Shown: one piece after another, positions 1 through 59,266 of the stretch
Position numbering within the stretch: the stretch's first letter is position 1
How the letters are laid out: each line of letters begins with the position of its first letter
From: Sthenelais limicola
Taxonomy: Eukaryota > Annelida > Polychaeta > Phyllodocida > Sigalionidae
DNA: 64,000 nt
Assembly: GCA_942159475.1 (NCBI GenBank)
Contig: OW804099.1
Location: 14,638,999 to 14,702,998 of the forward strand
Reading direction: 5' to 3'
Translations under genes and position numbers: made by a program
Notes under the pieces: generated by a model
Database searches by the model: none
Told to the model about the DNA's origin: nothing
What the model saw: only the letters and a program-made list of their open reading frames with translations

Positions 1-722
1 ATAACAAAATTTTTCAAGAATGTGTGGTACAAGCCGTATAATCATTATCATATATATAATGACCATAAGTACTATTGTATAAACAGTATTAATAATGGTA
101 ACAATGCTATTGTATAATAGAACACTATGGAATATACCTACCCATCATTGATTATGCTACATGGCATGAATAGATCTTTTAGAAATACTACAAGAAAATA
201 CTTGGCAAAAAGAATAAGGGTATGTTTTAAGGTATATGTTTGAGTTAAAAAAAAAAATTGTACTATTTGGCAAATCCCTACACAGGGTATAGAGTATGGG
301 TATTGAGTACTCGTGATTGGAGGGGTGAGCTGATTAGGATAACCAGTGAATGGACAGGCGCTCAACAGAACCCTGAAACACTCTCTGGGGTTGAATAAAC
401 AGATCTCCTCTTCCGATTAGGTGCTTACCCTAAAAACACTGTAAAAATTATAAGAAAGTTATGTAAAAAAACAAGGTTATTTGACGATAAATTGACTCAA
501 GTAATAGTTATGTATGTTTTAAGGGTCTAACTCCTTGAAATAATCGTCCTGTAGTTCTGCGGTTTCTTATATAATACGGCTCGAATTAAATAAGAATCAT
601 GGGAGGTGAAAGACTCGGGTTAGGTAAAGCGAGAAAAGTAATAGAAAGCAAGACAGTTAGTTTATATATGTTAGGGGTTCAAACTTGCTACTCGGGTACT
701 GTAGGGATGAAGGTATATTCTG
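1..722. other. A+T-rich leader of LINE A, noncoding
   Basis: I see no coding region on either strand. The stretch may be LINE A 5' untranslated sequence or flanking genomic DNA. No ORF1-like coiled coil or RNA-binding region precedes the ORF, and no element boundary or target-site duplication is visible, so the 5' end of LINE A cannot be placed and may lie outside the window. Confidence 0.5.
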
Positions 723-21969: not shown

Positions 21970-22807
21970 TTACTCAGTGATCCACTCTGGTTGCTCTAAC
22001 AGGTTAATCACATCCTCCAGGTGCTGCTTGTGTTGTTGCTGCTCCTGTAGTGTAGCTCTCACTCTGGTGTACACCAGCTTTATAACCAGAGTGTGGGTGT
22101 GTGAGGGGCTTATCTCAGTGTGGGTGTGTGAGGTGCTTATCTCAGTGTGGCTGTGTGAGGTGCTTATCTCTGTGTGGCTGTGTGAGGGGCTTATCTCAGT
22201 GTGGCTGTGTGAGGGGCTTAACTCAGTGTGGCTGTATGAGGGGCTTATCTCAGTGTGGCTGTGTGAGGGGCTTATCTCAGTGTGGCTGTGTGAGGGGCTT
22301 ATCTCAGCTCCACCTACATGAGGCATGACTGTCCAGCCTGGCTGTGTGGTGATGGAGGAGAGCCAGGAGATGAGCTCTGTACAGGACACCTCTCCATAAT
22401 ATACATCCATTACCCTCAGCTTGTGTGTAAGTGAGGCTATAGTGGCAGGTGTAAGTGAGGTGAGGAGAGGAGAGAGGGAGGCAGAGGAAGGCAGGAACAC
22501 AGCCAGTGTATCCATCCTGTGTGTACTAGATGCGACATGGTTCAGGGTAAGGCTCCAGGTGTCAGCACTGACTGCTGGTCTACCACCACCATACAGGTCT
22601 GTGTTTCTAGCATCCACATGTAGGAATAGCACCCCTCCCTGGCGCCCCCACACAGTGTGTGTATGGAGGAGGCAGGAGGATGAGGGGATGTCCTGGAGGC
22701 ACCAGGCTGTGATACGTGTCTCATTACCTGCAGCCTCCACCTCCACCCAGCGCTGTGTGTCAGGTACAGTAAGCAGTGTCACTGTGCCATCATCAGTATT
22801 GGTGAAC
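21970..22807 (-). CDS. terminal exon 1 of an unrecognised gene family
   Basis: This is an open exon of 838 bp on the minus strand, from a 3' splice site (TTTGCAG, AG at 22809-22808) to TAA at 21972-21970. The first base completes a codon begun in the previous exon (phase 2); the sequence then reads FTNTDDGTVTLLTVPDT. Its core aligns without gaps to exon 2 at 41701-42343: about 73 of 123 residues are identical, including TAWCLQDI, TDLYG, SADxW, SASLSPLL, SLTHKL, YGEV and QPGW. Two copies with conserved frame and splice phase indicate a real protein under constraint. An eight-copy nine-residue repeat is inserted before the C-terminal tail, which resembles that of exon 2 (LVI...EW[IV]T). I see no signal peptide, membrane segment or known catalytic motif, and no function is proposed. 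No ATG start is expected, because this is an internal reading frame. Confidence 0.75.
22090..22305 (-). repeat. 27-bp coding repeat, 8 copies (EISPSHSHT)
   Basis: Eight in-frame copies of a nine-residue unit EISPSHSHT (variants EISPSYSHT, ELSPSHSHT, EISTSHTHT) form a Ser/His/Thr-rich low-complexity insert in exon 1. The paralogous exon 2 has only about nine unrelated residues here. The unit length keeps the frame open. Confidence 0.9.
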
Positions 22808-22832
22808 CTGCAAACATGGAGTAGAGATAGAA
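22808..22832 (-). other. 3' splice site of terminal exon 1
   Basis: Reading the minus strand, a pyrimidine-rich stretch TTCTATCTCTACTCCATGTT leads to TGCAG at the exon border. A branch-point-like TGCTAAT lies about 40 nt upstream. All of this lies within the first 64-bp repeat unit. Confidence 0.7.
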
Positions 22833-24355
22833 GTCAATGTGAGTATATTAGCATACTGAGACTAGACATAGCTGCAAACATGGAGTAGAGATAGAAGTCA
22901 ATGTGGGTATATCAGCATACTGAGACTAGACATAGCTACAAACATGGAGTAGAGATAGAAGTCAATGTGGGTATATTAGCATACTGAGACTAGACATAGC
23001 TACAAACATGGAGTAGAGATAGAAGTCAATGTGAGTATATTAGCATACTGAGACTAGACATAGCTGCAAACATGGAGTAGAGATAGAAGTCAATGTGAGT
23101 ATATTAGCATACTGAGACTAGACATAGCTGCAAACATGGAGTAGAGATAGAAGTCAATGTGGGTATATTAGCATACTGAGACTAGCAATAGCTGCAAACA
23201 TGGAGTAGAGATAGAAGTCAATGTAAGTATATTAGCATACTGAGACTAGACATAGCTGCAAACATGGAGTAGAGATAGAAGTCAATGTGGGTATATTAGC
23301 ATACTGAGACTAGACATAGCTGCAAACGTGGAGTAGAGATAGAAGTCAATGTAAGTATATTAGCATACTGAGACTAGACATAGCTGCAAACATGGAGTAG
23401 AGATAGAAGTCAATGTGGGTATATTAGCATACTGAGACTAGACATAGCTACAAACATGGAGTAGAGATAGAAGTCAATGTGGGTATATTAGCATACTGAG
23501 ACTAGACATAGCTACAAACATGGAGTAGAGATAGAAGTCAATGTGGGTATATTAGCATACTGAGACTAGACATAGCTACAAACATGGAGTAGAGATAGAA
23601 GTCAATGTGGGTATATTAGCATACTGAGACTAGACATAGCTGCAAACATGGAGTAGAGATAGAAGTCAATGTGAGTATATTAGCATACTGAGACTAGACA
23701 TAGCTACAAACATGGAGTAGAGATGGAAGTCAATGTGAGTATATTAGCATACTGAGACTAGACATAGCTACAAACATGGAGTAGAGATAGAAGTCAATGT
23801 AAGTATATTAGCATACTGAGACTAGACATAGCTGCAAACATGGAGTAGAGATAGAAGTCAATGTGGGTATATTAGCATACTGAGACTAGACATAGCTACA
23901 AACATGGAGTAGAGATAGAAGTCAATGTAAGTATATTAGCATACTGAGACTAGACATAGCTGCAAACATGGAGTAGAGATAGAAGTCAATGTAAGTATAT
24001 TAGCATACTGAGACTAGACATAGCTGCAAACATGGAGTAGAGATGGAAGTCAATGTGAGTATATTAGCATACTGAGACTAGACATAGCTACAAACATGGA
24101 GTAGAGATAGAAGTCAATGTGGGTATATTAGCATACTGAGACTAGACATAGCTGCAAACATGGAGTAGAGATAGAAGTCAATGTGAGTATATTAGCATAC
24201 TGAGACTAGACATAGCTGCAAACATGGAGTAGAGATAGAAGTCAATGTAAGTATATTAGCATACTGAGACTAGACATAGCTGCAAACATGGAGTAGAGAT
24301 GGAAGTCAATGTGAGTATATTAGCATACTGAGACTAGACATAGCTGCAAACATGG
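22808..24355. repeat. 64-bp minisatellite, about 24 copies, carrying the 3' splice site
   Basis: The unit is 64 bp and includes CTGCAAACATGGAGTAGAGA and GTATATTAGCATACTGAGAC on the + strand. On the minus, gene-sense strand each unit has a TGCTAAT branch-point-like motif, a pyrimidine-rich tract and TTTGCAG. The copy touching exon 1 supplies the real acceptor; the others are near-identical decoys in the intron. Confidence 0.95.
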
Positions 24356-40825: not shown

Positions 40826-41720
40826 TTATATACTTATTATTGTCAGTTAATGTTCCTCATCACTTTGGTCTTATTTCTACATCAGGCTGTCACCCAGTGT
40901 GACACATATACTTGTTAGTGTCAGTTAATGTTAATGGAGGAGCTGACAGCTCTTGTATACAGTATGTCTACATCAGGCTGTCACCCACTGTCACACATAT
41001 ACTTGTTAGTGACAGTTAATATTAATGGAGGAGCTGACAGCTCTTGTATACAGTATATCTACATCAGGCTGTCACCCACTGTCACACATATACTTGTTAA
41101 TGTCAGTTAATGTTAATGGAGGAGCTGACAGCTCTTGTATACAGTATGTCTACATCAGGCTGTCACCCACTGTCACACATATACTTGTTAGTGTTAGTTA
41201 ATGTTAATGGAGGAGCTGACAGCTCTTGTATACAGTATGTCTACATCAGGCTGTCACCCACTGTCACACATATACTTGTTAGTGTCAGTTAATGTTAATG
41301 GAGGAGCTGACAGCTCTTGTATACAGTATGTCTACATCAGGCTGTCACCCACTGTCACACATATACTTGTTAGTGTCAGTTAATGTTAATGGAGGAGCTG
41401 ACAGCTCTTGTATACAGTATGTCTACATCAGGCTGTCACCCACTGTCACACATGTACTTGTTAGTGACAGTTAATGTTAATGGAGGAGCTGACAGCTCTT
41501 GTATACAGTATGTCTACATCAGGCTGTCACCCACTGTCACACATGTACTTGTTAGTGACAGTTAATGTTAATGGAGGAGCTGACAGCTCTTGTATACAGT
41601 ATGTCTACATCAGGCTGTCACCCACTGTCACACATATACTTGTTAGTGTCAGTTAATGTTAATGGAGGAGCTGACAGCTCTTGTATACAGTAGTTCTACA
41701 TCAGGCGGTCACCCACTGTG
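40826..41720. repeat. 91-bp minisatellite overlapping the stop codon of terminal exon 2, about 9-10 copies
   Basis: The unit is 91 bp and includes CAGTTAATGTTAATGGAGGA and CATCAGGCTGTCACCCACTG. The last copy runs into exon 2: its CATCAGGCGGTCACCCACTG at 41699-41718 is the minus-strand code for QWVTA plus the TGA stop. Each unit therefore carries a copy of the last five codons and stop. It is unrelated by eye to the larger 91-bp array despite the same length. Confidence 0.93.
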
Positions 41721-42343
41721 GTTCATACAACAGTTTAGCCTTACGCTGCAGGTGAGCCTCATGGTGCTGAGGTGTGGAGCTGATAGCTCTTGTCAACTTT
41801 AGGCTTATCACTAGAGACTGAGCCTCAGGACTGGTTACTCTAGCATTAGTAGCAGTAGTAGAGACTGACCAGCCTGGCTGTGAGGTGAGGCTGGTGTACC
41901 ATGAGCTGAGCTCACTACACTCCACCTCTCCATAATGAACCACCAGCTTATTCAGCTTGTGTGTGAGTGAGTGTAGAGTGGCATGGGTGAGTGCAGAGAG
42001 GAGAGGAGAGAGGCTGGCTGAGGCAGACAGGTACACTGCTAATATATCCATGCTGTGTGTACTGGATGTGATGTGGTTCATCACCTGCCACCAGGAGTCA
42101 GCACTGACTGGGGGGCGCTCATCACCATATAGGTCTGTGTACCTATCATCCAGGTTCAGGTGTATGTTATTGCCTGTGTGTGACCACACAGCATGAGGGT
42201 GGTGGATGCTGGAGGAGGTGAGAATGTCCTGGAGGCACCAGGCTGTGAACTGTGTACCATTAGCTGCTGCTACCACCAGCATCCTCCTGTGTGTACTAGG
42301 TACAGGTAACAGTGTACAGGTCTCTCCCTCACTGTCTGTGTAC
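41701..42343 (-). CDS. terminal exon 2, paralogue of terminal exon 1
   Basis: This is an open exon of 643 bp on the minus strand, from the acceptor TTTCTACAG (AG at 42345-42344) to TGA at 41703-41701. The first base finishes a codon from the previous exon (phase 2), as in exon 1, and the read begins YTDSEGETCTLLPVPST. The core is ungapped against exon 1, with shared TAWCLQDI, TDLYG, VSAD, SASLSPLL, SLTHKL, HYGEV / YYGEV and SQPGW / TQPGW. Exon 2 lacks the nine-residue repeats. The open frame continues upstream for about 480 bp only because the adjoining minisatellite happens to be open; that part is intron by homology with exon 1. No known domain is recognised, so function is unknown. Confidence 0.75.
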
Positions 42344-42362
42344 CTGTAGAAACAAGACACAC
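42344..42362 (-). other. 3' splice site of terminal exon 2
   Basis: On the minus strand TGTGTCTTGTTTCTACAG precedes the exon. The same TGTCTTGTTTCTACA occurs in the neighbouring repeat units, but there it is followed by T, not G, so only the exon-proximal copy makes an AG at this position. Confidence 0.7.
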
Positions 42363-45300
42363 AGTCTGTACCAGTCCACATATACACATATGTAGAAACA
42401 AGACCCACAGTCAGTACCAGTCCCCATACACACATATGTAGAAACAAGACACAGTCTGTACCAGTTCCCATATACACATATGTAGAAACAAGACACACAG
42501 TCAGTCTGTACCAGTCCCTATATACACACATGTAGAAACAAGACCCACAGTCAGTACCAGTCCCCATACACACATATGTAGAAACAAGACACAGTCTGTA
42601 CCAGTCCCCATATACACATATGTAGAAACAAGACACACAGTCTGTACCAGTCCCCATATACACATATGTAGAAACAAGACACACAGTCTGTACCAGTCCC
42701 CATATACACATATATGTAGAAACAAGACACACAGTCAGTCTGTACCAGTCCCCATATACACATATGTAGAAACAAGACACACAGTCTGTACCAGTCCCCA
42801 TATACACATATGTAGAAACAAGACACACAGTCTGTACCAGTCCCTATATACACATATGTAGAAACAAGACACAGTCTGTACCAGTCCCCATATACACATA
42901 TGTAGAAACAAGACACAGTCAGTCTGTACCAGTCCCTATATACACATATGTAGAAACAAGACACAGTCAGTCTGTACCAGTCCCCATATACACATATGTA
43001 GAAACAAGACACAGTCAGTCTGTACCAGTCCCCATATACACATATGTAGAAACAAGACACAGTCAGTCTGTACCAGTCCCTATATACACATATGTAGAAA
43101 CAAGACACACAGTCTGTACCAGTCCCCATATACACATATGTAGAAACAAGACACACAGTCAGTCTGTACCAGTCCCCATATACACATATGTAGAAACAAG
43201 ACACACAGTCAGTCTGTACCAGTCCACATATACACATATGTAGAAACAAGACACAGTCAGTCTGTACCAGTCCCCATATACACATATGTAGAAACAAGAC
43301 ACACAGTCAGTCTGTACCAGTCCCTATACACATATGTAGAAACAAGACACACAGTCTGTACCAGTCCCTATATACACATATGTAGAAACAAGACACAGTC
43401 AGTCTGTACCAGTCCCCATATACACATATGTAGAAACAAGACACAGTCAGTCTGTACCAGTCCCTATATACACATATGTAGAAACAAGACACACAGTCTG
43501 TACCAGTCCCCATATACACATATGTAGAAACAAGACACACAGTCAGTCTGTACCAGTCCCCATATACACATATGTAGAAAGAAGACACACAGTCAGTCTG
43601 TACCCGTCCCCATATACACATATGTAGAAACAAGACACAGTCTGTACCAGTCCACATATACACATATGTAGAAACAAGACACACAGTCAGTCTGTACCAG
43701 TCCCTATATACACATATGTAGAAACAAGACACACAGTCAGTCTGTACCAGTCCCCATATACACATATGTAGAAACAAGACACACAGTCTGTACCAGTCCC
43801 CATATACACATATGTAGAAACAAGACACAGTCAGTCTGTACCAGTCCCCATATACACATATGTAGAAACAAGACACAGTCAGTCTGTACCAGTCCCTATA
43901 TACACATATGTAGAAACAAGACACACAATCAGTCTGTACCAGTCCACATATACACATATGTAGAAACAAGACACACAGTCTGTACCAGTCCCCATATACA
44001 CATATGTAGAAACAAGACACACAGTCTGTACCAGTCCCCATATACACATATGTAGAAACAAGACACAGTCTGTACCAGTCCCCATATACACATATGTAGA
44101 AACAAGACACAGTCAGTCTGTACCAGTCCCTATATACACATATGTAGAAACAAGACACAGTCAGTCTGTACCAGTCCCTATATACACATATGTAGAAACA
44201 AGACACACAGACAGTCTGTACCAGTCCCCATACACATATGTAGAAACAAGACACACAGTCAGTCTGTACCAGTCCCCTTATACACATATGTAGAAACAAG
44301 ACACAGTCTGTACCAGTCCCCATATACACATATGTAGAAACAAGACACAGTCTGTACCAGTCCCCATATACACATATGTAGAAACAAGACACAGTCAGTC
44401 TGTACCAGTCCCTATATACACATATGTAGAAACAAGACACAGTCAGTCTGTACCAGTCCCCATATACACATATGTAGAAACAAGACACACAGTCAGTCTG
44501 TACCAGTCCCTATATACACATATGTAGAAACAAGACACAGTCAGTCTGTACCAGTCCACATATACACATATGTAGAAACAAGACACACAGTCTGTACCAG
44601 TCCCTATATACACATATGTAGAAACAAGACACAGTCAGTCTGTACCAGTCCCCATATACACATATGTAGAAACAAGACACACAGTCTGTACCAGTCCCTA
44701 TATACACATATGTAGAAACAAGACACACAGTCTGTCTGTACCAGTCCCCATATACACATATGTAGAAACAAGACACAGTCAGTCTGTACCAGTCCACATA
44801 TACACATATGTAGAAACAAGACACAGTCAGTCTGTACCAGTCCCCATATACACATATGTAGAAACAAGACACAGTCAGTCTGTACCAGTCCCTATATACA
44901 CATATGTAGAAACAAGACACAGTCAGTCTGTACCAGTCCACATATACACATATGTAGAAACAAGACACAGTCAGTCTGTACCAGTCCCCATATACACATA
45001 TGTAGAAACAAGACACAGTCAGTCTGTACCAGTCCCTATACACATATGTAGAAACAAGACACACAGTCTGTACCAGTCCCTATATACACATATGTAGAAA
45101 CAAGACATACAGTCTGTACCAGTCCCCATATACACATATGTAGAAACAAGACACACAGTCAGTCTGTACCAGTCCCCATATACACATATGTAGAAAGAAG
45201 ACACACAGTCAGTCTGTACCCGTCCCCATATACACATATGTAGAAACAAGACACAGTCTGTACCAGTCCACATATACACATATGTAGAAACAAGACACAC

Positions 45301-48300
45301 AGTCAGTCTGTACCAGTCCCTATATACACATATGTAGAAACAAGACACACAGTCAGTCTGTACCAGTCCCCATATACACATATGTAGAAACAAGACACAC
45401 AGTCTGTACCAGTCCCCATATACACATATGTAGAAACAAGACACAGTCAGTCTGTACCAGTCCCCATATACACATATGTAGAAACAAGACACAGTCAGTC
45501 TGTACCAGTCCCTATATACACATATGTAGAAACAAGACACACAATCAGTCTGTACCAGTCCACATATACACATATGTAGAAACAAGACACACAGTCTGTA
45601 CCAGTCCCCATATACACATATGTAGAAACAAGACACACAGTCTGTACCAGTCCCCATATACACATATGTAGAAACAAGACACAGTCTGTACCAGTCCCCA
45701 TATACACATATGTAGAAACAAGACACAGTCAGTCTGTACCAGTCCCTATATACACATATGTAGAAACAAGACACAGTCAGTCTGTACCAGTCCCTATATA
45801 CACATATGTAGAAACAAGACACACAGACAGTCTGTACCAGTCCACATACACATATGTAGAAACAAGACACACAGTCAGTCTGTACCAGTCCCCTTATACA
45901 CATATGTAGAAACAAGACACAGTCTGTACCAGTCCCCATATACACATATACATGTAGAAACAAGACACAGTCTGTACCAGTCCCCATATACACATATGTA
46001 GAAACAAGACACAATCAGTCTGTACCAGTCCCTATATACACATATGTAGAAACAAGACACAGTCAGTCTGTACCAGTCCCCATATACACATATGTAGAAA
46101 CAAGACACACAGTCAGTCTGTACCAGTCCCTATATACACATATGTAGAAACAAGACACAGTCAGTCTGTACCAGTCCACATATACACATATGTAGAAACA
46201 AGACACACAGTCTGTACCAGTCCCTATATACACATATGTAGAAACAAGACACAGTCTGTACCAGTCCCCATATACACATATGTAGAAACAAGACACAGTC
46301 AGTCTGTACCAGTCCCTATATACACATATGTAGAAACAAGACACAGTCAGTCTGTACCAGTCCCCATATACACATATGTAGAAACAAGACACAGTCAGTC
46401 TGTACCAGTCCCCATATACACATATGTAGAAACAAGACACAGTCAGTCTGTACCAGTCCCTATATACACATATGTAGAAACAAGACACACAGTCTGTACC
46501 AGTCCCCATATACACATATGTAGAAACAAGACACACAGTCAGTCTGTACCAGTCCCCATATACACATATGTAGAAACAAGACACACAGTCAGTCTGTACC
46601 AGTCCACATATACACATATGTAGAAACAAGACACAGTCAGTCTGTACCAGTCCCCATATACACATATGTAGAAACAAGACACACAGTCAGTCTGTACCAG
46701 TCCCTATACACATATGTAGAAACAAGACACACAGTCTGTACCAGTCCCTATATACACATATGTAGAAACAAGACATACAGTCTGTACCAGTCCCCATATA
46801 CACATATGTAGAAACAAGACACACAGTCAGTCTGTACCAGTCCCCATATACACATATGTAGAAAGAAGACACACAGTCAGTCTGTACCCGTCCCCATATA
46901 CACATATGTAGAAACAAGACACAGTCTGTACCAGTCCACATATACACATATGTAGAAACAAGACACACAGTCAGTCTGTACCAGTCCCTATATACACATA
47001 TGTAGAAACAAGACACACAGTCAGTCTGTACCAGTCCCCATATACACATATGTAGAAACAAGACACACAGTCTGTACCAGTCCCCATATACACATATGTA
47101 GAAACAAGACACAGTCAGTCTGTACCAGTCCCCATATACACATATGTAGAAACAAGACACAGTCAGTCTGTACCAGTCCCTATATACACATATGTAGAAA
47201 CAAGACACACAATCAGTCTGTACCAGTCCACATATACACATATGTAGAAAGAAGACACACAGTCTGTACCAGTCCCCATATACACATATGTAGAAACAAG
47301 ACACACAGTCTGTACCAGTCCCCATATACACATATGTAGAAACAAGACACAGTCTGTACCAGTCCCCATATACACATATGTAGAAACAAGACACAGTCAG
47401 TCTGTACCAGTCCCTATATACACATATGTAGAAACAAGACACAGTCAGTCTGTACCAGTCCCTTTATACACATATGTAGAAACAAGACACACAGACAGTC
47501 TGTACCAGTCCCCATACACATATGTAGAAACAAGACACACAGTCAGTCTGTACCAGTCCCCTTATACACATATGTAGAAACAAGACACAGTCTGTACCAG
47601 TCCCCATATACACATATGTAGAAACAAGACACAGTCTGTACCAGTCCCCATATACACATATATGTAGAAACAAGACACAGTCAGTCTGTACCAGTCCCTA
47701 TATACACATATGTAGAAACAAGACACAGTCAGTCTGTACCAGTCCCCATATACACATATGTAGAAACAAGACACACAGTCAGTCTGTACCAGTCCCTATA
47801 TACACATATGTAGAAACAAGACACAGTCAGTCTGTACCAGTCCACATATACACATATGTAGAAACAAGACACACAGTCTGTACCAGTCCCTATATACACA
47901 TATGTAGAAACAAGACACAGTCAGTCTGTACCAGTCCCCGTATACACATATGTAGAAACAAGACACACAGTCTGTACCAGTCCCTATATACACATATGTA
48001 GAAACAAGACACAGTCAGTCTGTACCAGTCCCCATATACACATATGTAGAAACAAGACACAGTCAGTCTGTACCAGTCCCCATATACACATATGTAGAAA
48101 CAAGACACAGTCTGTACCAGTCCCCATATACACATATGTAGAAACAAGACACAGTCAGTCTGTACCAGTCCCCATATACACATATGTAGAAACAAGACAC
48201 ACAGTCTGTACCAGTCCCTATATACACATATGTAGAAACAAGACACACAGTCTGTCTGTACCAGTCCCCATATACACATATGTAGAAACAAGACACAGTC

Positions 48301-50762
48301 AGTCTGTACCAGTCCCCATATACACATATGTAGAAACAAGACACACAGTCTGTACCAGTCCCTATATACACATATGTAGAAACAAGACACACAGTCTGTC
48401 TGTACCAGTCCCCATATACACATATGTAGAAACAAGACACAGTCAGTCTGTACCAGTCCACATATACACATATGTAGAAACAAGACACAGTCAGTCTGTA
48501 CCAGTCCCCATATACACATATGTAGAAACAAGACACAGTCAGTCTGTACCAGTCCCTATATACACATATGTAGAAACAAGACACACAGTCTGTACCAGTC
48601 CCCATATACACATATGTAGAAACAAGACACACAGTCAGTCTGTACCAGTCCCCATATACACATATGTAGAAACAAGACACACAGTCAGTCTGTACCAGTC
48701 CACATATACACATATGTAGAAACAAGACACAGTCAGTCTGTACCAGTCCCCATATACACATATGTAGAAACAAGACACACAGTCAGTCTGTACCAGTCCC
48801 TATACACATATGTAGAAACAAGACACACAGTCTGTACCAGTCCCTATATACACATATGTAGAAACTAGACATACAGTCTGTACCAGTCCCCATATACACA
48901 TATGTAGAAACAAGACACACAGTCAGTCTGTACCAGTCCCCATATACACATATGTAGAAAGAAGACACACAGTCAGTCTGTACCCGTCCCCATATACACA
49001 TATGTAGAAACAAGACACAGTCTGTACCAGTCCACATATACACATATGTAGAAACAAGACACACAGTCAGTCTGTACCAGTCCCTATATACACATATGTA
49101 GAAACAAGACACACAGTCAGTCTGTACCAGTCCCCATATACACATATGTAGAAACAAGACACACAGTCTGTACCAGTCCCCATATACACATATGTAGAAA
49201 CAAGACACAGTCAGTCTGTACCAGTCCCCATATACACATATGTAGAAACAAGACACAGTCAGTCTGTACCAGTCCCTATATACACATATGTAGAAACAAG
49301 ACACACAATCAGTCTGTACCAGTCCACATATACACATATGTAGAAACAAGACACACAGTCTGTACCAGTCCCCATATACACATATGTAGAAACAAGACAC
49401 ACAGTCTGTACCAGTCCCCATATACACATATGTAGAAACAAGACACAGTCTGTACCAGTCCCTATATACACATATGTAGAAACAAGACACAGTCAGTCTG
49501 TACCAGTCCCTATATACACATATGTAGAAACAAGACACACAGTCTGTACCAGTCCCCATATACACATATGTAGAAACAAGACACAGTCAGTCTGTACCAG
49601 TCCCTATATACACATATGTAGAAACAAGACACAGTCAGTCTGTACCAGTCCCTATATACACATATGTAGAAACAAGACACACAGACAGTCTGTACCAGTC
49701 CCCATACACATATGTAGAAACAAGACACACAGTCAGTCTGTACCAGTCCCCTTATACACATATGTAGAAACAAGACACAGTCTGTACCAGTCCCCATATA
49801 CACATATGTAGAAACAAGACACAGTCTGTACCAGTCCCCATATACACATATGTAGAAACAAGACACAGTCAGTCTGTACCAGTCCCTATATACACATATG
49901 TAGAAACAAGACACAGTCAGTCTGTACCAGTCCCCATATACACATATGTAGAAACAAGACACACAGTCAGTCTGTACCAGTCCCTATATACACATATGTA
50001 GAAACAAGACACAGTCAGTCTGTACCAGTCCACATATACACATATGTAGAAACAAGACACACAGTCTGTACCAGTCCTTATATACACATATGTAGAAACA
50101 AGACACAGTCAGTCTGTACCAGTCCCCATATACACATATGTAGAAACAAGACACACAGTCTGTACCAGTCCCTATATACACATATGTAGAAACAAGACAC
50201 ACAGTCTGTCTGTACCAGTCCCCATATACACATATGTAGAAACAAGACACAGTCAGTCTGTACCAGTCCACATATACACATATGTAGAAACAAGACACAC
50301 AGTCAGTCTGTACCAGTCCCCATATACACATATATGTAGAAACAAGACACAGTCAGTCTGTACCAGTCCCCATATACACATATGTAGAAACAAGACACAG
50401 CCTGTACCAGTCCCCATATACACATATGCAGAAACAAGACACAGTCTGTACCAGTCCCCATATACACATATGTAGGAACAAGACACACAGTCAGTCTGTA
50501 CCAGTCCCCATATACACATATGTAGAAACAAGACACACAGTCAGTCTGTACCAGTCCCCATATACTCATATGTAGAAACAAGACACAGTCAGTCTGTACC
50601 AGTCCACATATACACATATGTAGAAACAAGACACACAGTCTGTACCAGTCCCCATATACACATATGTAGAAACAAGACACAGTCAGTCTGTACCAGTCCC
50701 TATATACACATATGTAGAAACAAGACACAGTCAGTCTGTACCAGTCCCCATGTACACATATG
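42344..50762. repeat. 44-50-bp minisatellite array, about 180 copies, 8.4 kb
   Basis: The unit is GTAGAAACAAGACACAGTCT plus GTACCAGTCC, CCATATACACATAT, 44 bp, with +2 (ACAC) and +4 (AGTCAGTC) variants giving 44, 46, 48 and 50 bp. The marker GAAGACACAC...TACCCGTCCC recurs at 43581, 45197, 46865 and 48961, spacings of 1616, 1668 and 2096 bp, so the array is organised in higher-order blocks. Long minus-strand ORFs (up to 393 codons) are by-products. It occupies the intron side of terminal exon 2. Confidence 0.97.
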
Positions 50763-51529: not shown

Positions 51530-51803
51530 TCAGTTGGCAGTTGGCTTTCACCATGAGCGGACGTGGATAGAGCGAGCACCGCTGGTAGCATTGACAAGGG
51601 ATTAGCATAGCGCCAAATGTGCCCTCCTTTATATACTACCGACCCAGTGATTTTACGTTTGCACCGTCCAGTTTTCACTGTTTGAATCGAACTCTTTTTA
51701 GATTTTCAAATCATCCTGGACTTCTTTTACCTTCTATACCTGGTCTACGTGGAACTTTTATTAACCTATGTGAATAAGTGATTGTGCTCACATACTCGCC
51801 AGT

Positions 51804-53543
51804 ATGTACCACGGAAATGCAAACCGATCTACGCGATCTAACACAGATCTTGGCTTTATGAACTTATTTCATCTTGAAGAATCACCAGATCATAATATGG
51901 ACTTCTACAACACACAATCTCAGGATTTTTCTAGACGATCTAGTCATATGCCTCCCATTAACAGTCCTCCTGTTGCACCGACCAATACTACGCAGATATC
52001 CTACCCAAGTCAAGGCAATATGATCTCGTCCTCCATAGCTATGTCTCAAGCTGGAACATCGAATGGACCCGCTCAAACTACAACCAGTCAGATAAGTTAT
52101 CAAAATCCTATCTCATCCATTGTACCATTTGCCTCCCTTCCAGCTAATCAATCCCAGCCAAACGAGGATAGATTGGATGTCAAACTAGAGCGTTTCATGG
52201 AAGGAATGACACTTTCAGTTAACTCAATGAAAGAGTCCCTAGACAAACTAATAGAAACAAATTCTATCTATGAAGGGAGATTTGCCTTTATAGCCTCTAA
52301 GATAACAGATGTTAATCGTACATCAAACAGAGTAGAATCTAAATGTGATAACCTGGGTTCTCAAGTTGCAGATATAAATCAACGCCTGCCAGTCGTTGAA
52401 TCGACTCTCTCTCTTTTTGAGAATAGAGTCCAACAACTGGAAGCCCAACATGCCCAACGCTTACAATGGCCTGCTCCCAATACACAAAATACTTCGATTC
52501 CCACTGCTATGAATCCTACTAACAAAAGCCCTTATCCAGCAAACCCCGCAAACCAAGACACTATTCCACCTGCAAATTCGAGAGAACTTAGTTTAATCAT
52601 TAAAGGTATTAAAGAGCCAGCCGATGAAGAAATAGCTGACACCATTAATGCTTTTTTCAATGATCTAAAGCTAACTATAAAATACGTGCAAACAGCTGGC
52701 GCAACTCGACTTGGAGATTTCAATAATGATTTGGCATTGGAAATGGAAAACAGTGCATCAAATATAAAATATGGTAGACCCATTCGACTTACAATGCTCT
52801 CAAACACAAACAAAATAAATCTTTTCAAAGCTTTATCCAGAAATCGTAACAACCCAATCCTACAAGGGATTAGAGCGTTCAATGACTTAACAGAGCACGA
52901 CCAGCTGTTAGAAAAGGAGGCTAGGGCCTTCACAGCTGCGGCCAGGGTATTACATAAGAAAAGAGCGACTGTCAGAGGAACATCAGTAATGATTGAAGGG
53001 GATACCTATGTGGCGGAGAAGTATGATCTCCTTCCACTAGGTATAACACCAATTACAGCTTCGAATTATGACACCCCGGACGGAACATGCTTTCAAGGGC
53101 ATATGAGTCCCCTTTCAAACCTCTACGTGTGTGAAATGGAAATGGACGATACCAGTACTGTCTACTCTGTAGAACAATTATATCAACTGAAGAAGGCGAT
53201 TCACAACAAGGCTGATCCGGATTTGATCGAGAAGCTTAGATCGATTAAAAATCCCTACACAATAAAGCGTTTATCAAAACAAATACCTGTTGTCGATGAT
53301 TGGAAAACACAAGAGAGAGAAGTTCTAAAGGCTTGCGCGAAGGCTAAATTCGATAATCATGCCGAATGTAAGCACTTTCTCATGAGCCTGAAGCCTGGTC
53401 ACATTTACGAGGCAACCTTCGAAGACCCCCACGGTTGCGGCTTCAGACTTGTAGATGCCGAACAGATCACTGCAAAGAACATCCTACCAGGAAGAAACGC
53501 CTTTGGGAAGCTTTTGGAAGAGATTAAGCAAGAGTATACCTGA
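51804..53543 (+). CDS. LINE D ORF1: coiled coil + RNA-binding region + NADAR domain
   Basis: The protein is 579 residues, starting at ATG 51804 in MYHGNANRST. In order it has a Ser/Thr/Pro/Gln-rich N-terminus (1-120), a coiled coil (about 124-217, LDVKLERFM to VQQLEAQ), a linker, an L1-ORF1p-like RRM and C-terminal region (about 260-410, from RELSLIIKGIKEP to RGTSVMIEGDTYV), and a NADAR/YbiA-like domain (about 428-579). The last has FQGHMSPLSNLY (430-441), SVEQLYQLKKA (455-465, with E457 at the YbiA glutamate position), DDW (498-500), AKAKF (512-516), DPHGCGF (541-547, His where relatives usually have Trp) and GRNAFGKLLEEIK (563-575). The coiled-coil and RNA-binding parts would package the element RNA. 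NADAR proteins are N-glycosidases acting on ADP-ribosyl or related adducts; a role here is inference. ORF1 ends 46 nt before the esterase ORF. Confidence 0.87.
   Translation: MYHGNANRSTRSNTDLGFMNLFHLEESPDHNMDFYNTQSQDFSRRSSHMPPINSPPVAPTNTTQISYPSQGNMISSSIAMSQAGTSNGPAQTTTSQISYQNPISSIVPFASLPANQSQPNEDRLDVKLERFMEGMTLSVNSMKESLDKLIETNSIYEGRFAFIASKITDVNRTSNRVESKCDNLGSQVADINQRLPVVESTLSLFENRVQQLEAQHAQRLQWPAPNTQNTSIPTAMNPTNKSPYPANPANQDTIPPANSRELSLIIKGIKEPADEEIADTINAFFNDLKLTIKYVQTAGATRLGDFNNDLALEMENSASNIKYGRPIRLTMLSNTNKINLFKALSRNRNNPILQGIRAFNDLTEHDQLLEKEARAFTAAARVLHKKRATVRGTSVMIEGDTYVAEKYDLLPLGITPITASNYDTPDGTCFQGHMSPLSNLYVCEMEMDDTSTVYSVEQLYQLKKAIHNKADPDLIEKLRSIKNPYTIKRLSKQIPVVDDWKTQEREVLKACAKAKFDNHAECKHFLMSLKPGHIYEATFEDPHGCGFRLVDAEQITAKNILPGRNAFGKLLEEIKQEYT
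53088..53540 (+). other. NADAR/YbiA-like domain in ORF1
   Basis: The segment matches the NADAR pattern (N-glycosidase family of E. coli YbiA) from SPLSN through SVEQxYQxxKA, the DDW turn, AKF and the final GRNxxGKLLEEI block. Spacing of these blocks follows the family. The Trp of the usual WG motif is replaced by His-Gly, so catalytic competence is uncertain. Confidence 0.82.
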
Positions 53544-53589
53544 GTCTAAGTATTACTCTTCTTTTTCCCTTTTGATTCACCAGTTGAAA

Positions 53590-54270
53590 ATGTCTACGTT
53601 TCAAATCCTAATCCTGGGCGATTCTCGAGTTAGTAGGTGGGAAGCAATTGCCAGTCAGCTATCGGCTGAATATAATTGCAACGATCTCCAACTGACATTC
53701 ATATCGATCCCTGGAGGAACGTGTGAATCCATAGCAAATCAAGCGGTTATTCTATTTCATTATCATCAATTCGATGTAATGTATTTCTGTGGTGGCATTA
53801 ACAATTTTTCCAGCAAAATAGGCTATCGAAAAATAACTCCCATCCAGAGGGTAGAAAATTCCCTTGCCAACATGGTTTTTCAAGACATCACCCTAGCTCT
53901 TCCCAAGCTGAGAGCTGTGGCCAAAGTGGTTATAATTTGTGAAATAGTAGGCTTATCTTATGCTATGTATAACAAGCGAGATATAACCTCCCCTGAAGAC
54001 CAGACCGCTATCAACATGGCAATATATGAGATTAATCAACAAATCCGCAAATACAATAGGAAGAACAAGTTAACCACACCAAGCTTTGAAGGACATACCC
54101 ATAAGATACGAAAGGGATTCATCTCACATCGTTATAACTCTACAACTTCCGATGGGATCCACTTTACCCACGACACAAATACTAAATTTGTCAAGAAAAT
54201 TTTCTCTACAATATACCGAAATATCAGACAAACTGTTGACTTTTATCTAAAGGAAACTTCTCACACATAA
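53590..54270 (+). CDS. LINE D SGNH/GDSL esterase-like ORF
   Basis: The protein is 226 residues from ATG at 53590, the first ATG giving MSTFQILILGDSRVSRW; the frame is open 45 codons further upstream, overlapping ORF1, but without supporting similarity. It shows the SGNH hydrolase blocks: GDS at 10-12 (nucleophile Ser12), Gly42 in a GGT turn, GGINN at 68-72 (block III, Asn71) and DGIHF at 188-192 (Asp188, His191). The full triad and oxyanion positions are present. Esterase domains are known in ORF1 proteins of CR1 and L2 LINEs, where lipid or membrane binding has been proposed. Here the module is a separate ORF, 46 nt after ORF1, so it would need reinitiation, shunting or its own RNA. Confidence 0.85.
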   Translation: MSTFQILILGDSRVSRWEAIASQLSAEYNCNDLQLTFISIPGGTCESIANQAVILFHYHQFDVMYFCGGINNFSSKIGYRKITPIQRVENSLANMVFQDITLALPKLRAVAKVVIICEIVGLSYAMYNKRDITSPEDQTAINMAIYEINQQIRKYNRKNKLTTPSFEGHTHKIRKGFISHRYNSTTSDGIHFTHDTNTKFVKKIFSTIYRNIRQTVDFYLKETSHT

Positions 54271-54525
54271 CTGCTCAATCTGTGGCTGGAAATGTTTCCG
54301 TAATTAAAATCAACACCCTTCCCTTAACATTTAACCTATATCTCTTAAATTCTCCGACTCAATTCTCGCAATAGTCTGGTACAAACAGAAAGCATAAAGT
54401 ATGCCTAGACTCTATGTATATATTGCTAATGCACTCTTATGTATCTAAACTTCGCTCAAATGTTATCCGCCCAGCTATGGCTGTCGCTTCGATTCACTTT
54501 TTTTGGACCGTACACTCTAGCTTAA

Positions 54526-54534
54526 TATAAATAG
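54526..54534 (+). promoter_or_regulatory. TATA-like box 1 (TATAAATAG) upstream of ORF2
   Basis: The sequence is TATAAATAGCT, 16 nt downstream of ACCGTACAC. It matches a metazoan TATA box and is repeated 109 bp downstream with the same flanking motif. Whether it drives a separate ORF2 transcript is inference. Confidence 0.4.
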
Positions 54535-54634
54535 CTTTGCATGAATGTTGTCGCTCGAGCTCCTATTGTTTACGTTCATCAACACAGAGGGCGCCTCGGT
54601 TCTCTTTTTTTTTTAACCGTACACCCCAACCTCC

Positions 54635-54643
54635 TATAAATAG
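54635..54643 (+). promoter_or_regulatory. TATA-like box 2 (TATAAATAG) upstream of ORF2
   Basis: This is a second TATAAATAGCT with the same upstream ACCGTACAC and downstream GTTGTC motif. It lies 550 nt before the ORF2 ATG. Confidence 0.4.
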
Positions 54644-55184
54644 CTGTGAACAAACGTTGTCCGATCAGTAGCAGGAGAGCTCTCCTACCATCAACGTCTC
54701 GAACTATAATGTACATAAACACTCTCACACAATCCTATGACTTGTGATTCGGGTATATGTACAGATTTTTTCTTTGTCCTTGCTCTTTCCTTGTATGTTT
54801 TATACTCAAATCACGCATAATGAATTAAAATTGGTCAGCTGATTCTCACCCCACACTCGCCTGCAGTGATTCGGTGATCATTCTGATTAGTTGATGTATT
54901 ATATTTCCATACCGTGTCATTATGTTATTTCTGTTAGATACTTCTAAATGCTTATGTTTATAATGAATGACCATGCAGCTAGCCACTAGGCGCGCTGGCA
55001 AGCTGTATGCACCTAATACTTTGATTACTTCAGCTATTTCAACTTTTAATTCCCTTTTTGCTTCCAGCACCCTCCCCCCCCTCTCACTCTTTCCTCTCCC
55101 GTCCGTAATTTTTATTGGTACTGCCTCTTGGCTGTGCACTTAGCATCCGGCCAAGCTCTACCCGTTAGTCTATACACCTTAATA

Positions 55185-58052
55185 ATGACTCTTAACAATA
55201 AGAAAAATGGCCTTTTCTTTTATTATCTGAACTGTCAGAGTATCAATAATAAAATTGACCTTATCAAACAAAACCTAATATCAATTAAACCGGATTTTAT
55301 CTCTCTTTCGGAGACATGGCTCACTGAATCGACACCTGACCAGCAAATTGCTCTATCAGGCTACAATCTAGTCAGGCAAGATAGAAACTATTGCCTCCCC
55401 AACTCGACTACAGTAAAAAAGGGTGGCGGATTACTATGTTATATTAAACAAGGTCTGCACTATGAAATTATTCCTGAACTGAGCACTTCTGCACCTCATC
55501 TTGAATCGATTACAATTAAGATTAAGCCTATAAACATCAAACCTTTCTTCATAACCTCTGTCTACAGACCCCCATCAGGCTCCATTGACTCATGCCTTGA
55601 ATCCCTCACAAATATACTCTCCCAATGCTGTCTAGGAAATACTGTCCCAGCAGAAAGGATAATCCTCGGGGACTTCAATATAAATATGCTTAAAAATAAC
55701 TGTCCTGATAGAAATAAACTCAAACTTTTCAATCAGCAAAATGGGCTAGCTCAACTTATAAGTGAACCAACAAGATATGCCCTTAGAGGTGACACCTCCA
55801 CATCCAGTCTTATCGATCTGATTTTAACTAATTCAACCAATATCTCTGACAGTGGAACTCTAAACCACAACTTAAGCGATCATGAGGCGATATTCTTTAT
55901 CAGGAAAAAAGCCAAAATCTCTAGAGTTTACAATATGAAACGCAGCAGGAGCTATAGAAATTTTAATTCTAACCTCTTCCAATTGAACCTTCGTCAAAAT
56001 TTTAACTGGCTTAATTTCATATCAATTACTAATCCCGAAGAGTCCTGGGAATTCATCTCAAATGCTATATCAACTACACTTGACAACATGTGCCCAATTA
56101 AAAATATACTAATCAGAGAGAATAATGATCCCTGGATCTCCAGAGAAATACTGGATGCTATTAAATGTAAAAATCTAGCAAGGAAAAAAGCCAAACGCAC
56201 TGGCTCCTCTGAGGATTTGAATGAAGCAAAAAGACTCAGAAAAAGTGTGAATAAGCTACTTCTAAATGCCAAAAAAAATTACATGCACCAGACCCTCTCT
56301 AATGTTAATGACCCTAAGAAATATTGGAAAACAATAAATATGCTTCTTCCCTCTAAAACCACTAGTTCAGAAATAAATCTGAATGATGAGAATGGCTCCC
56401 CCATACCAAAAAATAACCTCCCTAACTATATTAATAACTACTTTGCGCACATTACTTGTAATTTACTAAAAGATATAGCGGACATACCCTGGAGCACAAC
56501 TATACCTAATAGGATCACTGAGATCCACACTATTGTAACCAATGAAATTGAAATGCTTGGCTTAATCTCTAAAATTGATACCTCAAAGTCATCTGCAATT
56601 GACAATGTTCCAAATTCAATAGTCAAAGAAGCCTTTGCTTTATTATTACCAGAAATGACTCACTGCATCAACATGTCCTTCTCTAGCTGTATCTTTCCTA
56701 AAACATGGAAAACAGCTACTGTTGTACCCTTATTTAAAGGAGGTATATCATCACAAGTTAACAACTTTCGTCCTATCTCTCTACTCCCAACCCCCAGTAA
56801 ACTTATAGAGAAAATTGTTCACACCAGAGTTCTTACTTACCTTAACACTAATAATATTCTAGACAATAACCAAGCAGGTTTTCTCCCAGGTAAATCCACA
56901 ATTAACACAATTAGTCGTCTTACTGATGACATAGCCATTTCAATAGAAAAGAAGACCCCTACCCTCCTTACTTTTATCGATTTTAGGAAAGCCTTCGATA
57001 TGGTTGACCATCAAATACTACTCCATAAATTGCTCAATATTGGGATACGTGGCAATCTCCATTCCTGGATAAAATCTTACCTTTCTAACCGCTTCCAAAA
57101 AACAATTGTTAACAACCTACTTTCAGATAAAGCTCAAATAAAATCAGGAGTACCCCAAGGATCTATCCTTGGACCTCTCCTATTTCTTATATTTATAAAT
57201 GACATTGGTCACCATCTCCACCATACTAACTATCTTTTATACGCAGATGACACAGTTCTATATCAATCTGATCTATCCATTACTAGACTGTATCAAAATA
57301 TGCAAACAGACCTTGACTCCTTAGCAAACTGGTGTAAAATAAATAAATTCCTGATAAATGCCTCAAAAACCAAGCTCATGATAGTCAACAAATCAACAAA
57401 TAAAAATCTCCCCCCACCAATAGCTATTACTCTCAACTCTAAACCCCTTGAGACTGTTCACACCTATAAATATCTGGGTGTTCTTTTGGATGACAAACTA
57501 ACATTCCAGCCTCACATAAAAAACATAATTAAAATAATATCACACAAAATATTTCTTTTCTTACGCATCAGACATCTACTAACTGACAAATCTGCTCTCC
57601 TAGTCTTTAAAAGTAAAATACTACCATTTTTTGACTATGGGGATATACTCTATCATGATACGCACCAAGGTAATCTAATGAAGCTGCAAAGGCTACAAAA
57701 CAAAGCTCTTAGAGCAATTCATAAGGTAGATGCCCTGCATCCCACATATGATCTGCACAGGGACTTGAAAGTACCATTTCTTCAAAATAGAAGAGAATTA
57801 CATCTAAGATTATGTGGACACTCTAGAACTAAATCTAAATATTATACCTCCCAAAATGACAACAAAAATACCAGAGCTAATGATGCCCCAATTCTTAAAA
57901 CCTTTTTCTACAAATCTCAATCTGGTAAAAACTCAGTATTTAATAAAGTAGCCAAATCCTGGAATCAACTCCCCCCACGATCAAGAAATATAGGAAACAT
58001 TGAGACCTTCAAGTCCCTTCAGAAAAAATGGCTGCTTGACACTATTACTTGA
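55185..58052 (+). CDS. LINE D ORF2: APE endonuclease and reverse transcriptase
   Basis: The protein is 955 residues from ATG 55185 (MTLNNKKNG); the frame is open slightly further upstream but without an ATG. The endonuclease domain shows NCQS (16-19), SETWL (42-46), VYRPPSG, GDFN (162-165), IDLILTN and SDH (231-233). The RT domain shows FRPISLLP (528), DFRKAFD (599), PQGSILGPLL (657) and the catalytic YADD (686-689). A C-terminal LINE region includes KSWNQLPPRSRNI. No lesion is present. It is moderately similar in motif layout to LINE A ORF2 but clearly a different family. It would perform target nicking and target-primed reverse transcription. Confidence 0.93.
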   Translation: MTLNNKKNGLFFYYLNCQSINNKIDLIKQNLISIKPDFISLSETWLTESTPDQQIALSGYNLVRQDRNYCLPNSTTVKKGGGLLCYIKQGLHYEIIPELSTSAPHLESITIKIKPINIKPFFITSVYRPPSGSIDSCLESLTNILSQCCLGNTVPAERIILGDFNINMLKNNCPDRNKLKLFNQQNGLAQLISEPTRYALRGDTSTSSLIDLILTNSTNISDSGTLNHNLSDHEAIFFIRKKAKISRVYNMKRSRSYRNFNSNLFQLNLRQNFNWLNFISITNPEESWEFISNAISTTLDNMCPIKNILIRENNDPWISREILDAIKCKNLARKKAKRTGSSEDLNEAKRLRKSVNKLLLNAKKNYMHQTLSNVNDPKKYWKTINMLLPSKTTSSEINLNDENGSPIPKNNLPNYINNYFAHITCNLLKDIADIPWSTTIPNRITEIHTIVTNEIEMLGLISKIDTSKSSAIDNVPNSIVKEAFALLLPEMTHCINMSFSSCIFPKTWKTATVVPLFKGGISSQVNNFRPISLLPTPSKLIEKIVHTRVLTYLNTNNILDNNQAGFLPGKSTINTISRLTDDIAISIEKKTPTLLTFIDFRKAFDMVDHQILLHKLLNIGIRGNLHSWIKSYLSNRFQKTIVNNLLSDKAQIKSGVPQGSILGPLLFLIFINDIGHHLHHTNYLLYADDTVLYQSDLSITRLYQNMQTDLDSLANWCKINKFLINASKTKLMIVNKSTNKNLPPPIAITLNSKPLETVHTYKYLGVLLDDKLTFQPHIKNIIKIISHKIFLFLRIRHLLTDKSALLVFKSKILPFFDYGDILYHDTHQGNLMKLQRLQNKALRAIHKVDALHPTYDLHRDLKVPFLQNRRELHLRLCGHSRTKSKYYTSQNDNKNTRANDAPILKTFFYKSQSGKNSVFNKVAKSWNQLPPRSRNIGNIETFKSLQKKWLLDTIT

Positions 58053-58592
58053 TATTAACCTTACCTTGAAAATGTGTCCGGTCCAAACAGATGAGCAACA
58101 TTCTGATACTACCAAACATGTTTGAACCGTACACTTCCCTCTTGTCTAGTCGACTATTTAAGGAAATCATTTCTGTGAAAACTTATACGACCAGATATAC
58201 TCTTAACCTATGGTCGATGAGCAGTAAATCCTAAGAAAACATTGTTATGAAAGGCTTGCAAAATATAAGAGGATCACTCTCATAAGATAGAGGTTAATCC
58301 CTTTGCAAATTTATTACCTGTATATACACCTTTTATGAATCTAACTATCCTAATCTAATGCTAAAACAACATTTATGGGTCACACTCTACATAAGTGGTT
58401 ATCCCATCATTAACAGTAATATTATTACTATTAATATAATTAAACATTCTCACTAAAATTTCCTTGAATCACTCAACGACTATGTACAAATGTATTTATG
58501 TTCTTCAAAAGCTGGGTTACGCCAGAACATCCTACCACCATGGGAGGTGCTGGACCCAGTGGAAATAAAATCTTTAAAAAAAAAAAAAAAAA
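58053..58592 (+). other. LINE D 3' UTR, hairpin and poly(A) tail
   Basis: This is a 3' untranslated stretch ending in GCTGGGTTACG...CCACCATGGGAGG...GGACCCAGTGG, with complementary CTGGGT and ACCCAG arms, then AATAAA and about 19 A residues. The hairpin is a plausible RT-recognition structure. Confidence 0.7.
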
Positions 58593-59266
58593 GAAATTTA
58601 TGTGTGTCTACAGTCCCCATATACACATAATTATCTGCTGTATCACAGAGAAATGAGTCATAAATAAAAAAAAAAGGATCCATTGTATTTGAAAAGATTT
58701 TATTTCACACTAAATATATTTGATAGGATGACATTAGAATTGCCAGTATGTATTTAGTAGACTGTCCTGAAATGTGGTGCATGTATTTATACAAGACTTA
58801 AATTGCTAGCAATGTAGTCCTTCCTACAGAGACTTCTTGTGTATAAAACACTTATGGTTTCTTATATCAGTGTCATGACTTGTGACTCATTTCTCTGTTA
58901 CACATGACATATTTATGTAGAAAGCTTTCATAGTGAAATATAGACTTGTAATGAGAAATTCTGTGATATCAGAGATGTCTTTTCCCTCTGATCTGTGTAC
59001 AAGTGTTCTGTGGACACTTGTACACACTCCTCATTTAGTTCTAGCTTATTGTGTAAAGCATCTATTCTAATTGTTACATCTCATATGATAGCCTTTATTA
59101 GACTTCACAGACAAAGAAATCTTAACCATTTGAACAAAGGCCTACATGTTGAAAAATAATTCACAAGTCACAAATTATTGATATTTTTTTAAAATGACTC
59201 ATTAACAGGATTCCTTGCTCACAATGATGTCATCTGGAGGGATGCTAAGCGCTGCTAGTAGCATAT
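58593..59266. other. anonymous A+T-rich sequence with a stray 44-bp-repeat fragment
   Basis: At 58611-58629 there is CAGTCCCCATATACACATA, identical to part of the unit of the 42344-50762 array. No gene is seen in the rest. Confidence 0.55.

Follow-up and report, generated by a model that had tools for sequence, protein, structure and literature searches.

The known NADAR (YbiA-family) proteins remove ADP-ribose from guanine (PMC11543638, PMC11125620), and the hydrolysis of guanine-linked ADP-ribose has been reported for a eukaryotic NADAR as well (PMC11543638). The roles of this domain in eukaryotes are largely open (PMC11125620), one exception being nematode SNA-3, a host protein of an RNA-protein complex with three NADAR domains, conserved residues of which are required for SL1 trans-splicing, on a substrate that has yet to be identified (PMC9303266). 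NADAR domains are also found in selfish elements. They occur in eukaryotic RNA viruses, including positive-strand RNA viruses of invertebrates, where they are embedded in polyproteins with the RdRp, and in giant viruses (PMC9503650); among retroelements, Gypsy elements of the brown alga Ectocarpus, which are LTR retrotransposons, have a NADAR at the N-terminus of Pol, and 'divergent hits' to NADAR, with an unclear role, have been noted in ORF1 of several Tx1 LINEs of the oyster Crassostrea gigas (PMC12477816). Furthermore, the type IV (esterase) ORF1 of CR1/L2 elements, such as ZfL2-1, contains an SGNH hydrolase, and none of the esterase ORF1 proteins in RepBase is reported to have a structural RNA-binding domain (PMC3905857). 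The exchange of ORF1 between LINE lineages is well documented (PMC4120745).

Here we analyze LINE D, an element contained in a 64,000-nucleotide stretch of the genome of the annelid Sthenelais limicola (hereafter, the window), in which a NADAR domain forms the end of the ORF1 protein. LINE D resembles the oyster LINEs in having this domain in ORF1, and the Ectocarpus elements and the viruses in having it in a selfish element, but the domain sits in a LINE ORF1 rather than in Pol or an RdRp polyprotein; unlike SNA-3, the protein is not a host protein with three NADAR domains. Given the oyster Tx1 ORF1 proteins with NADAR-like domains, the hint in the sequence-only reading of this DNA that such an architecture is unknown for LINEs was too strong (PMC12477816). 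The oyster elements are classed as Tx1; the passages on them amount to a single sentence, with nothing on residues, selection, copy number or SGNH (PMC12477816). No further report of NADAR/YbiA in retrotransposons or other transposable elements was found by title or abstract opening among the papers listed from the mainly open-access literature. Thus, the LINE NADAR fusion is already known in kind, and what LINE D adds is the first evidence on selection and residues that could be found.

The element and its copies

Comparison of sampled copies places LINE D at about 51532-58592 on the plus strand of the window. All eight copies share the 5' start (window 51531-51538, 95.6-97.8% identity over 131-138 nt), where a 5' leader begins (51532..51803, +), and seven of the eight share the poly(A) end at 58585-58592 (99.1-99.8% identity), which closes the 3' UTR (58053..58592, +), the 3' match being absent in the eighth (L068); the flanks differ at both ends. 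Shared outer ends with different flanks indicate that ORF1 (51804..53543, +; 579 aa and a stop codon), an SGNH-like second ORF and ORF2 (55185..58052, +; 955 aa from this ATG, with the frame opening earlier) belong to one unit, and the high identity of the copies points to recent movement. With an endonuclease and a reverse transcriptase in ORF2 (Pfam Exo_endo_phos_2, E 2.5e-10, and RVT_1, E 2.7e-38), a poly(A) tail and dispersed copies that share their ends, LINE D has the attributes of a LINE. For the window copy, an exact search for a target-site duplication gave only matches to repeat-array sequence, and no clear duplication could be seen by eye in the flanks of the sampled copies. We read LINE D as a recently active three-ORF non-LTR retrotransposon, with the NADAR at the C-terminus of ORF1 as a stable, selected module.

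The 0.86-kb spacer between the SGNH-like ORF and ORF2 includes two direct repeats, each with a TATA sequence, at a distance of 109 nt (54498..54661, +), which we infer might serve as an internal promoter. This spacer also prompted the idea of two nested elements, one with ORF1 and the SGNH-like ORF and the other with ORF2. Such nesting is disfavoured by the outer ends common to the copies (8/8 and 7/8) and by the finding of ORF2 in five of the six downstream stretches, from other families. One of these stretches belongs to a sister family, and five are more distant. The five ORF2 sequences are 41-72% identical to that of LINE D, and their identity to a different LINE, at 711-3668 of the window, is 28-35%; three of them (L077, L080, L081) have an unbroken frame of 953-965 codons, and in two (L079, L082) the frame is broken. 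In the remaining stretch, from a 49%-identity family member (L078), no ORF2 relative was found within 4.3 kb downstream, and this copy may be rearranged or non-autonomous. The ORF2 proteins span 955-974 aa, a search for the CCHC pattern in them was negative, and the solved LINE-1 ORF2 proteins are matched weakly (69-72 bits; 76 for 8c8j), features that presumably fit the CR1/L2/Jockey group better than L1/Tx1.

When the entire assembly (1,130,627,326 bases in 161 contigs, with the window at C6:14638999-14702998) was searched with the NADAR query, there were 4356 first-look candidates, and all 150 that were scored matched, at identities from 100% (four places including the window) down to 45% (E about 3e-37), so that the genome holds at least 150 matches. 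Frame counts were made for 30 loci (L007-L036, including L012 and L018, which overlap and contain the same two NADAR copies): 17 of the 24 loci at 96-100% identity, including two (L029, L030) with an altered C-terminal end, have an ORF1 frame uninterrupted for 568 codons or more, and five of the six loci at 79-82% identity have one of at least 576 codons. The NADAR-ORF1 fusion is present in many copies and in several diverged families of this genome. The in-frame fusion to a LINE ORF1 that had been read from the sequence is supported, as is its recurrence in other copies, so that neither of the outcomes named as refuting the sequence-only reading (no NADAR match or fold, no further copies with the fusion) has come about.

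Could the fusion nevertheless be a chance read-through, an assembly fault or a one-off capture at this locus? No other NADAR copy was found within the window, and third-position GC is higher in the NADAR segment (76/158 codons) than in the rest of ORF1 (139/421), both of which would suit such an accident. However, the 150 genome matches, the shared element ends and dN/dS values far below 1 (see below) refute this explanation, leaving it hardly any probability. The GC difference reaches significance when all codons are counted (P 0.001) but does not when only fourfold sites are (P 0.08), and for this reason a recent foreign origin of the NADAR is not claimed.

Several peculiarities of individual copies and their surroundings should be mentioned. 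At L018/L012, the NADAR and SGNH segment is duplicated in tandem (C1:2407108 and C1:2408372). The match at C4:136822024-136822494 lies within a 1417-aa open frame, far above the usual length of ORF1 and possibly a fusion with another ORF. In the 3' flank of LINE D, a 19-bp stretch (58611-58629) exactly matches the 48-bp minisatellite units of 42345-50762, upstream of the element, as if the array and the insertion site had a common origin; a further LINE D copy lies within a different minisatellite, with CCCTGT... units on both sides (junctions L075, L076). On the minus strand of the window, two visually similar frames (21973-22833 and 41704-42300) are located near tandem repeat arrays, and neither has a Pfam match above the cut-off.

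The NADAR domain of ORF1: identity and selection

Upstream of the NADAR, the ORF1 protein contains a predicted coiled coil (residues about 126-221; 52179..52466, +), suggested by our own heptad scan and by sub-threshold coiled-coil Pfam models, and a conserved block (residues 259-413; 52578..53042, +) with 33 positions invariant in four sequences. We take this block to be a candidate L1-type RRM/CTD; searches for such a domain in ORF1 gave no Pfam match, to RRM or Transposase_22, and none in the PDB, whether with the sequence or with a profile, and the structure model is of low confidence. The weak PDB matches of the ORF1 profile have names that indicate designed or engineered proteins. Neither the full ORF1 nor the NADAR alone had a match in the protein database at E <= 0.001, and no relatives turned up in prokaryote contigs scanned with ORF1 or in viral contigs scanned with NADAR, ORF2 and SGNH.

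The C-terminal segment (residues 434-577; 53103..53534, +) is, as the sequence-only reading had proposed, a NADAR domain: it matches PF08719 with 59.6 bits, above the curated cut-off of 35.1, as do its relatives L057 (52.8 bits) and L058 (71.3 bits), and it has the NADAR/YbiA fold, that of the Phytophthora nicotianae NADAR (8bau) and E. coli YbiA (2b3w). By contrast, the score against TIGR02464, the equivalog model of the riboflavin-intermediate N-glycosidase, is 57.3 bits, below the cut-off of 73.7, and the score against the anti-phage NADAR model likewise stays under its cut-off. Nor does the domain qualify as a DarT1-associated NADAR antitoxin: the catalytic position is Glu, not Asp, in 26 of 26 LINE NADARs, and no linked ADP-ribosyltransferase was detected in the three ORFs scanned. 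The NADAR alignment joined with five phage and plasmid NADARs yielded 6760 matches when used as a query against the protein database, and the viral structure matches of the domain include RNA-virus proteins, namely, Ingleside virus polymerase (rank 8) and Wenling nido-like virus 1 (rank 49). In the NADAR of a Lactobacillus johnsonii plasmid (L001, 268-780), the segment NQITDNN resembles the LINE EQITAKN that precedes the terminal GxN motif; a similar segment is absent from the four phage NADARs aligned with it.

Selection was assessed on 26 LINE NADARs, which are the window copy, five sister copies and 20 others chosen at 45-72% identity, mostly for long open frames, so that their stop-free state is partly a matter of choice. 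Our own Nei-Gojobori script gave a usable synonymous distance for 18 of the 325 pairs, with dN/dS of 0.034-0.326; the nine lowest values are 0.034-0.086, and values above 0.1 are confined to pairs with dS > 1.7, near saturation. Between the window and the five sister copies, for which synonymous sites are near saturation, pN is 0.112-0.141 in NADAR, 0.221-0.235 in the rest of ORF1 and 0.163-0.276 in the SGNH-like ORF, so that, among the three segments compared, constraint is strongest on NADAR. Purifying selection on the domain is strong, and it has diverged in step with ORF2: for the 15 (non-independent) pairs of six sequences, NADAR and ORF2 identities rise together (Pearson 0.81, Spearman 0.56), as would fit one early acquisition followed by common descent. 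An abundant retrotransposon lineage has a NADAR as a fixed part, in which the catalytic-site residues are invariant (see below) and close pairs show dN/dS of about 0.05.

Pocket residues and possible functions

Residues of the pocket are numbered here after 8bau, with an offset of 2, under which the letters of the 13 ligand-region residues given in PMC11543638 are reproduced. The window NADAR keeps E43, K50, K75, D86, W89, E125 and D130 of this structure and differs at six positions (G78->S, R79->K, V81->I, Y84->V, R93->E, W133->H), in addition to being fused to ORF1. The codons of E457 (= E43; 53172..53174, +), K464 (= K50; 53193..53195, +) and E536 (= E125, the YbiA-type catalytic glutamate; 53409..53411, +) encode residues identical in all 26 LINE NADARs, which hence have both the E43/K50 pair, largely conserved across the NADAR superfamily, and the Glu that marks the YbiA subfamily. 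Despite identities of 45-100%, 38 positions are invariant in this set, among them K75, W89 and, in the terminal motif, the N and the second G, and two sequences beyond the 26 (L057, L058) have the same E, K, W and E. The scaffold hypothesis, under which NADAR is a structural or nucleic-acid-binding part of the ORF1 protein with an unused pocket, draws on the C-terminal place of the domain in a presumed RNA packager, but the presence of ligand-pocket residues among the 38 invariant positions and the roughly twofold faster change of the rest of ORF1 render it improbable.

Other contacts have changed. The R93 site, which contacts the pyrophosphate, is K or R in 82/82 bacterial and phage homologues and basic in none of the 26 LINE NADARs (E10, A9, S3, T2, G1, D1); the W133 site is Y in 17, H in seven and F in two; and the adenine-stacking Y84 is not kept. 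The changes at R93 and W133 speak for an altered pocket. The D130 site is itself D in only 3/26, with E or D, by eye, in 26/26 at the adjoining residue 540. In the second NADAR of SNA-3, E, D and W are the residues homologous to critical ones of YbiA (PMC9303266); if, as their spacing suggests, this D and W correspond to the D130 and W133 positions, neither would be kept exactly in the LINEs.

What these changes mean for activity depends on the weight given to the conserved residues. In the E. coli C7 NADAR, substitutions at the counterparts of E43, K50 and E125 abolish rescue from DarT1, but E88A, at the E43 counterpart, has only a minor effect in vitro (PMC11543638), so that the conservation of E43 is not in itself proof of turnover. 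The domain might be a non-catalytic reader of ADP-ribose or nucleotides that guides the particle to chromatin carrying ADP-ribose or to sites of repair, as would suit the changed R93 and W133 positions in all 26 sequences. The invariance of both glutamates and the lysine stands against a reader, although these residues are ligand contacts too, so that binding could explain it; we regard this option as quite unlikely. Taken together, E43, K50 and E125 being kept and the R93 and W133 contacts changed make catalysis likely and the exact ligand uncertain: the LINE D NADAR is probably an active enzyme, and ADP-ribosylated nucleic acid could well be its substrate, an assignment for which our confidence stops just short of an even balance.

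Under the reading that we prefer, with nearly as much doubt as belief and slightly more of the former, the ORF1 protein of LINE D would coat the RNA of the element, as those of other LINEs do, and the NADAR pocket would thereby sit beside LINE RNA and newly made cDNA. There, the domain would hydrolyse N-glycosidic adducts of ADP-ribose that host ADP-ribosyltransferases attach in restriction or repair, guanine being the most likely base, and the template would stay readable for reverse transcription. Invariant E43, K50 and E125 and purifying selection are compatible with such stripping of ADP-ribose marks. Clam CARP-1 is a guanine-specific DNA ADP-ribosyltransferase (PMC11209040), so that guanine ADP-ribose marks can arise in some invertebrates, and the requirement for SNA-3 residues in trans-splicing indicates that a NADAR can serve on an RNP.

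An alternative is that NADAR does not clean guanine in the nucleic acid of LINE D. Its substrates might instead be small molecules or the ends of RNA, be they ADP-ribose derivatives (free or cyclic), RNA that is NAD-capped or has been repaired, or other N-ribosides, or it might take part in RNA processing, as SNA-3 perhaps does. Phage NADARs may target mostly soluble derivatives (PMC9503650), SNA-3 employs the domain in trans-splicing (PMC9303266), and the LINEs have Glu where DarT1-type NADARs have the catalytic Asp (D171 of E. coli C7; PMC11543638). However, a domain fused to a protein that putatively binds RNA and multimerises is more likely to have its substrate on the RNP, and macromolecular targets are favoured for the NADARs of eukaryotic RNA viruses (PMC9503650); we consider this alternative unlikely. 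Counter-defence or template-cleaning remains, we infer, the best reading of the role of NADAR. In its full form, namely, that a whole LINE lineage equipped the protein that packages its RNA with a guanine de-ADP-ribosylase, so that host ADP-ribose marks on foreign or reverse-transcribed nucleic acid are erased inside the particle, it is a speculative proposal with the larger part of the probability against it. If this is true, animals would have a nucleic-acid ADP-ribosylation defence against retrotransposons. A LINE with a NADAR makes the occurrence of nucleic-acid ADP-ribosylation in its hosts, and the target of such marking, directly testable.

The SGNH-like second ORF

The second ORF (53590..54270, +; 226 aa) contains the GDS, GxN and DGxH blocks of SGNH hydrolases (G10-D11-S12, G69xN71, D188-G189xH191), which are identical in 6/6 aligned sequences. 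The sequence-only reading of the NADAR fusion makes no mention of this ORF, which lies between ORF1 and ORF2. A shuffle control of the motif gave 0/20000, for a pattern composed after the sequence had been seen. The window ORF and its L057 relative have no Pfam match above cut-off, and PDB searches gave no match by sequence and no fitting match by profile; the relative L060, 40% identical to the window ORF, matches PF00657 (Lipase_GDSL; E 2.5e-6, 28.2 bits, above 23.6) and falls below the cut-off of PF13472 (28.3 bits vs 32.9). We take the product to be an SGNH hydrolase by this family resemblance, and it would be a separate accessory, lipid- or acyl-directed. An SGNH hydrolase is thus encoded by LINE D as by ZfL2-1-type elements, but in a separate ORF beside the NADAR ORF1 and not, like the esterase, within the ORF1 protein (PMC3905857). 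Next to the esterase, LINE biology thereby gains one more enzyme-like domain, and LINE D seems to carry both.

The two coding segments mostly occur together. In 27 of the 30 loci, the SGNH ORF lies 3' of NADAR, in some cases in pieces, and it is missing in three. When the best 92 of the 150 NADAR matches are paired with the first 93 SGNH matches, SGNH follows on the same strand 487-803 nt downstream (between the lower coordinates) in 80/92 and is missing in 12/92, and 13 of the 93 SGNH matches have no NADAR match upstream. Four SGNH matches at 39-42% identity, for which no NADAR was among the matches listed, were examined upstream: three are preceded by a NADAR ORF1, that of L059 being broken over several frames. 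In the fourth, L060 (1-3101), the SGNH ORF is preceded by an ORF2-like frame of another LINE. In the window, the reading frame of SGNH differs from that of ORF1 and already has an ATG before the ORF1 stop codon, from which it stays open (53455-53589), so that translational coupling of NADAR and SGNH, or their fusion by frameshifting, is possible.
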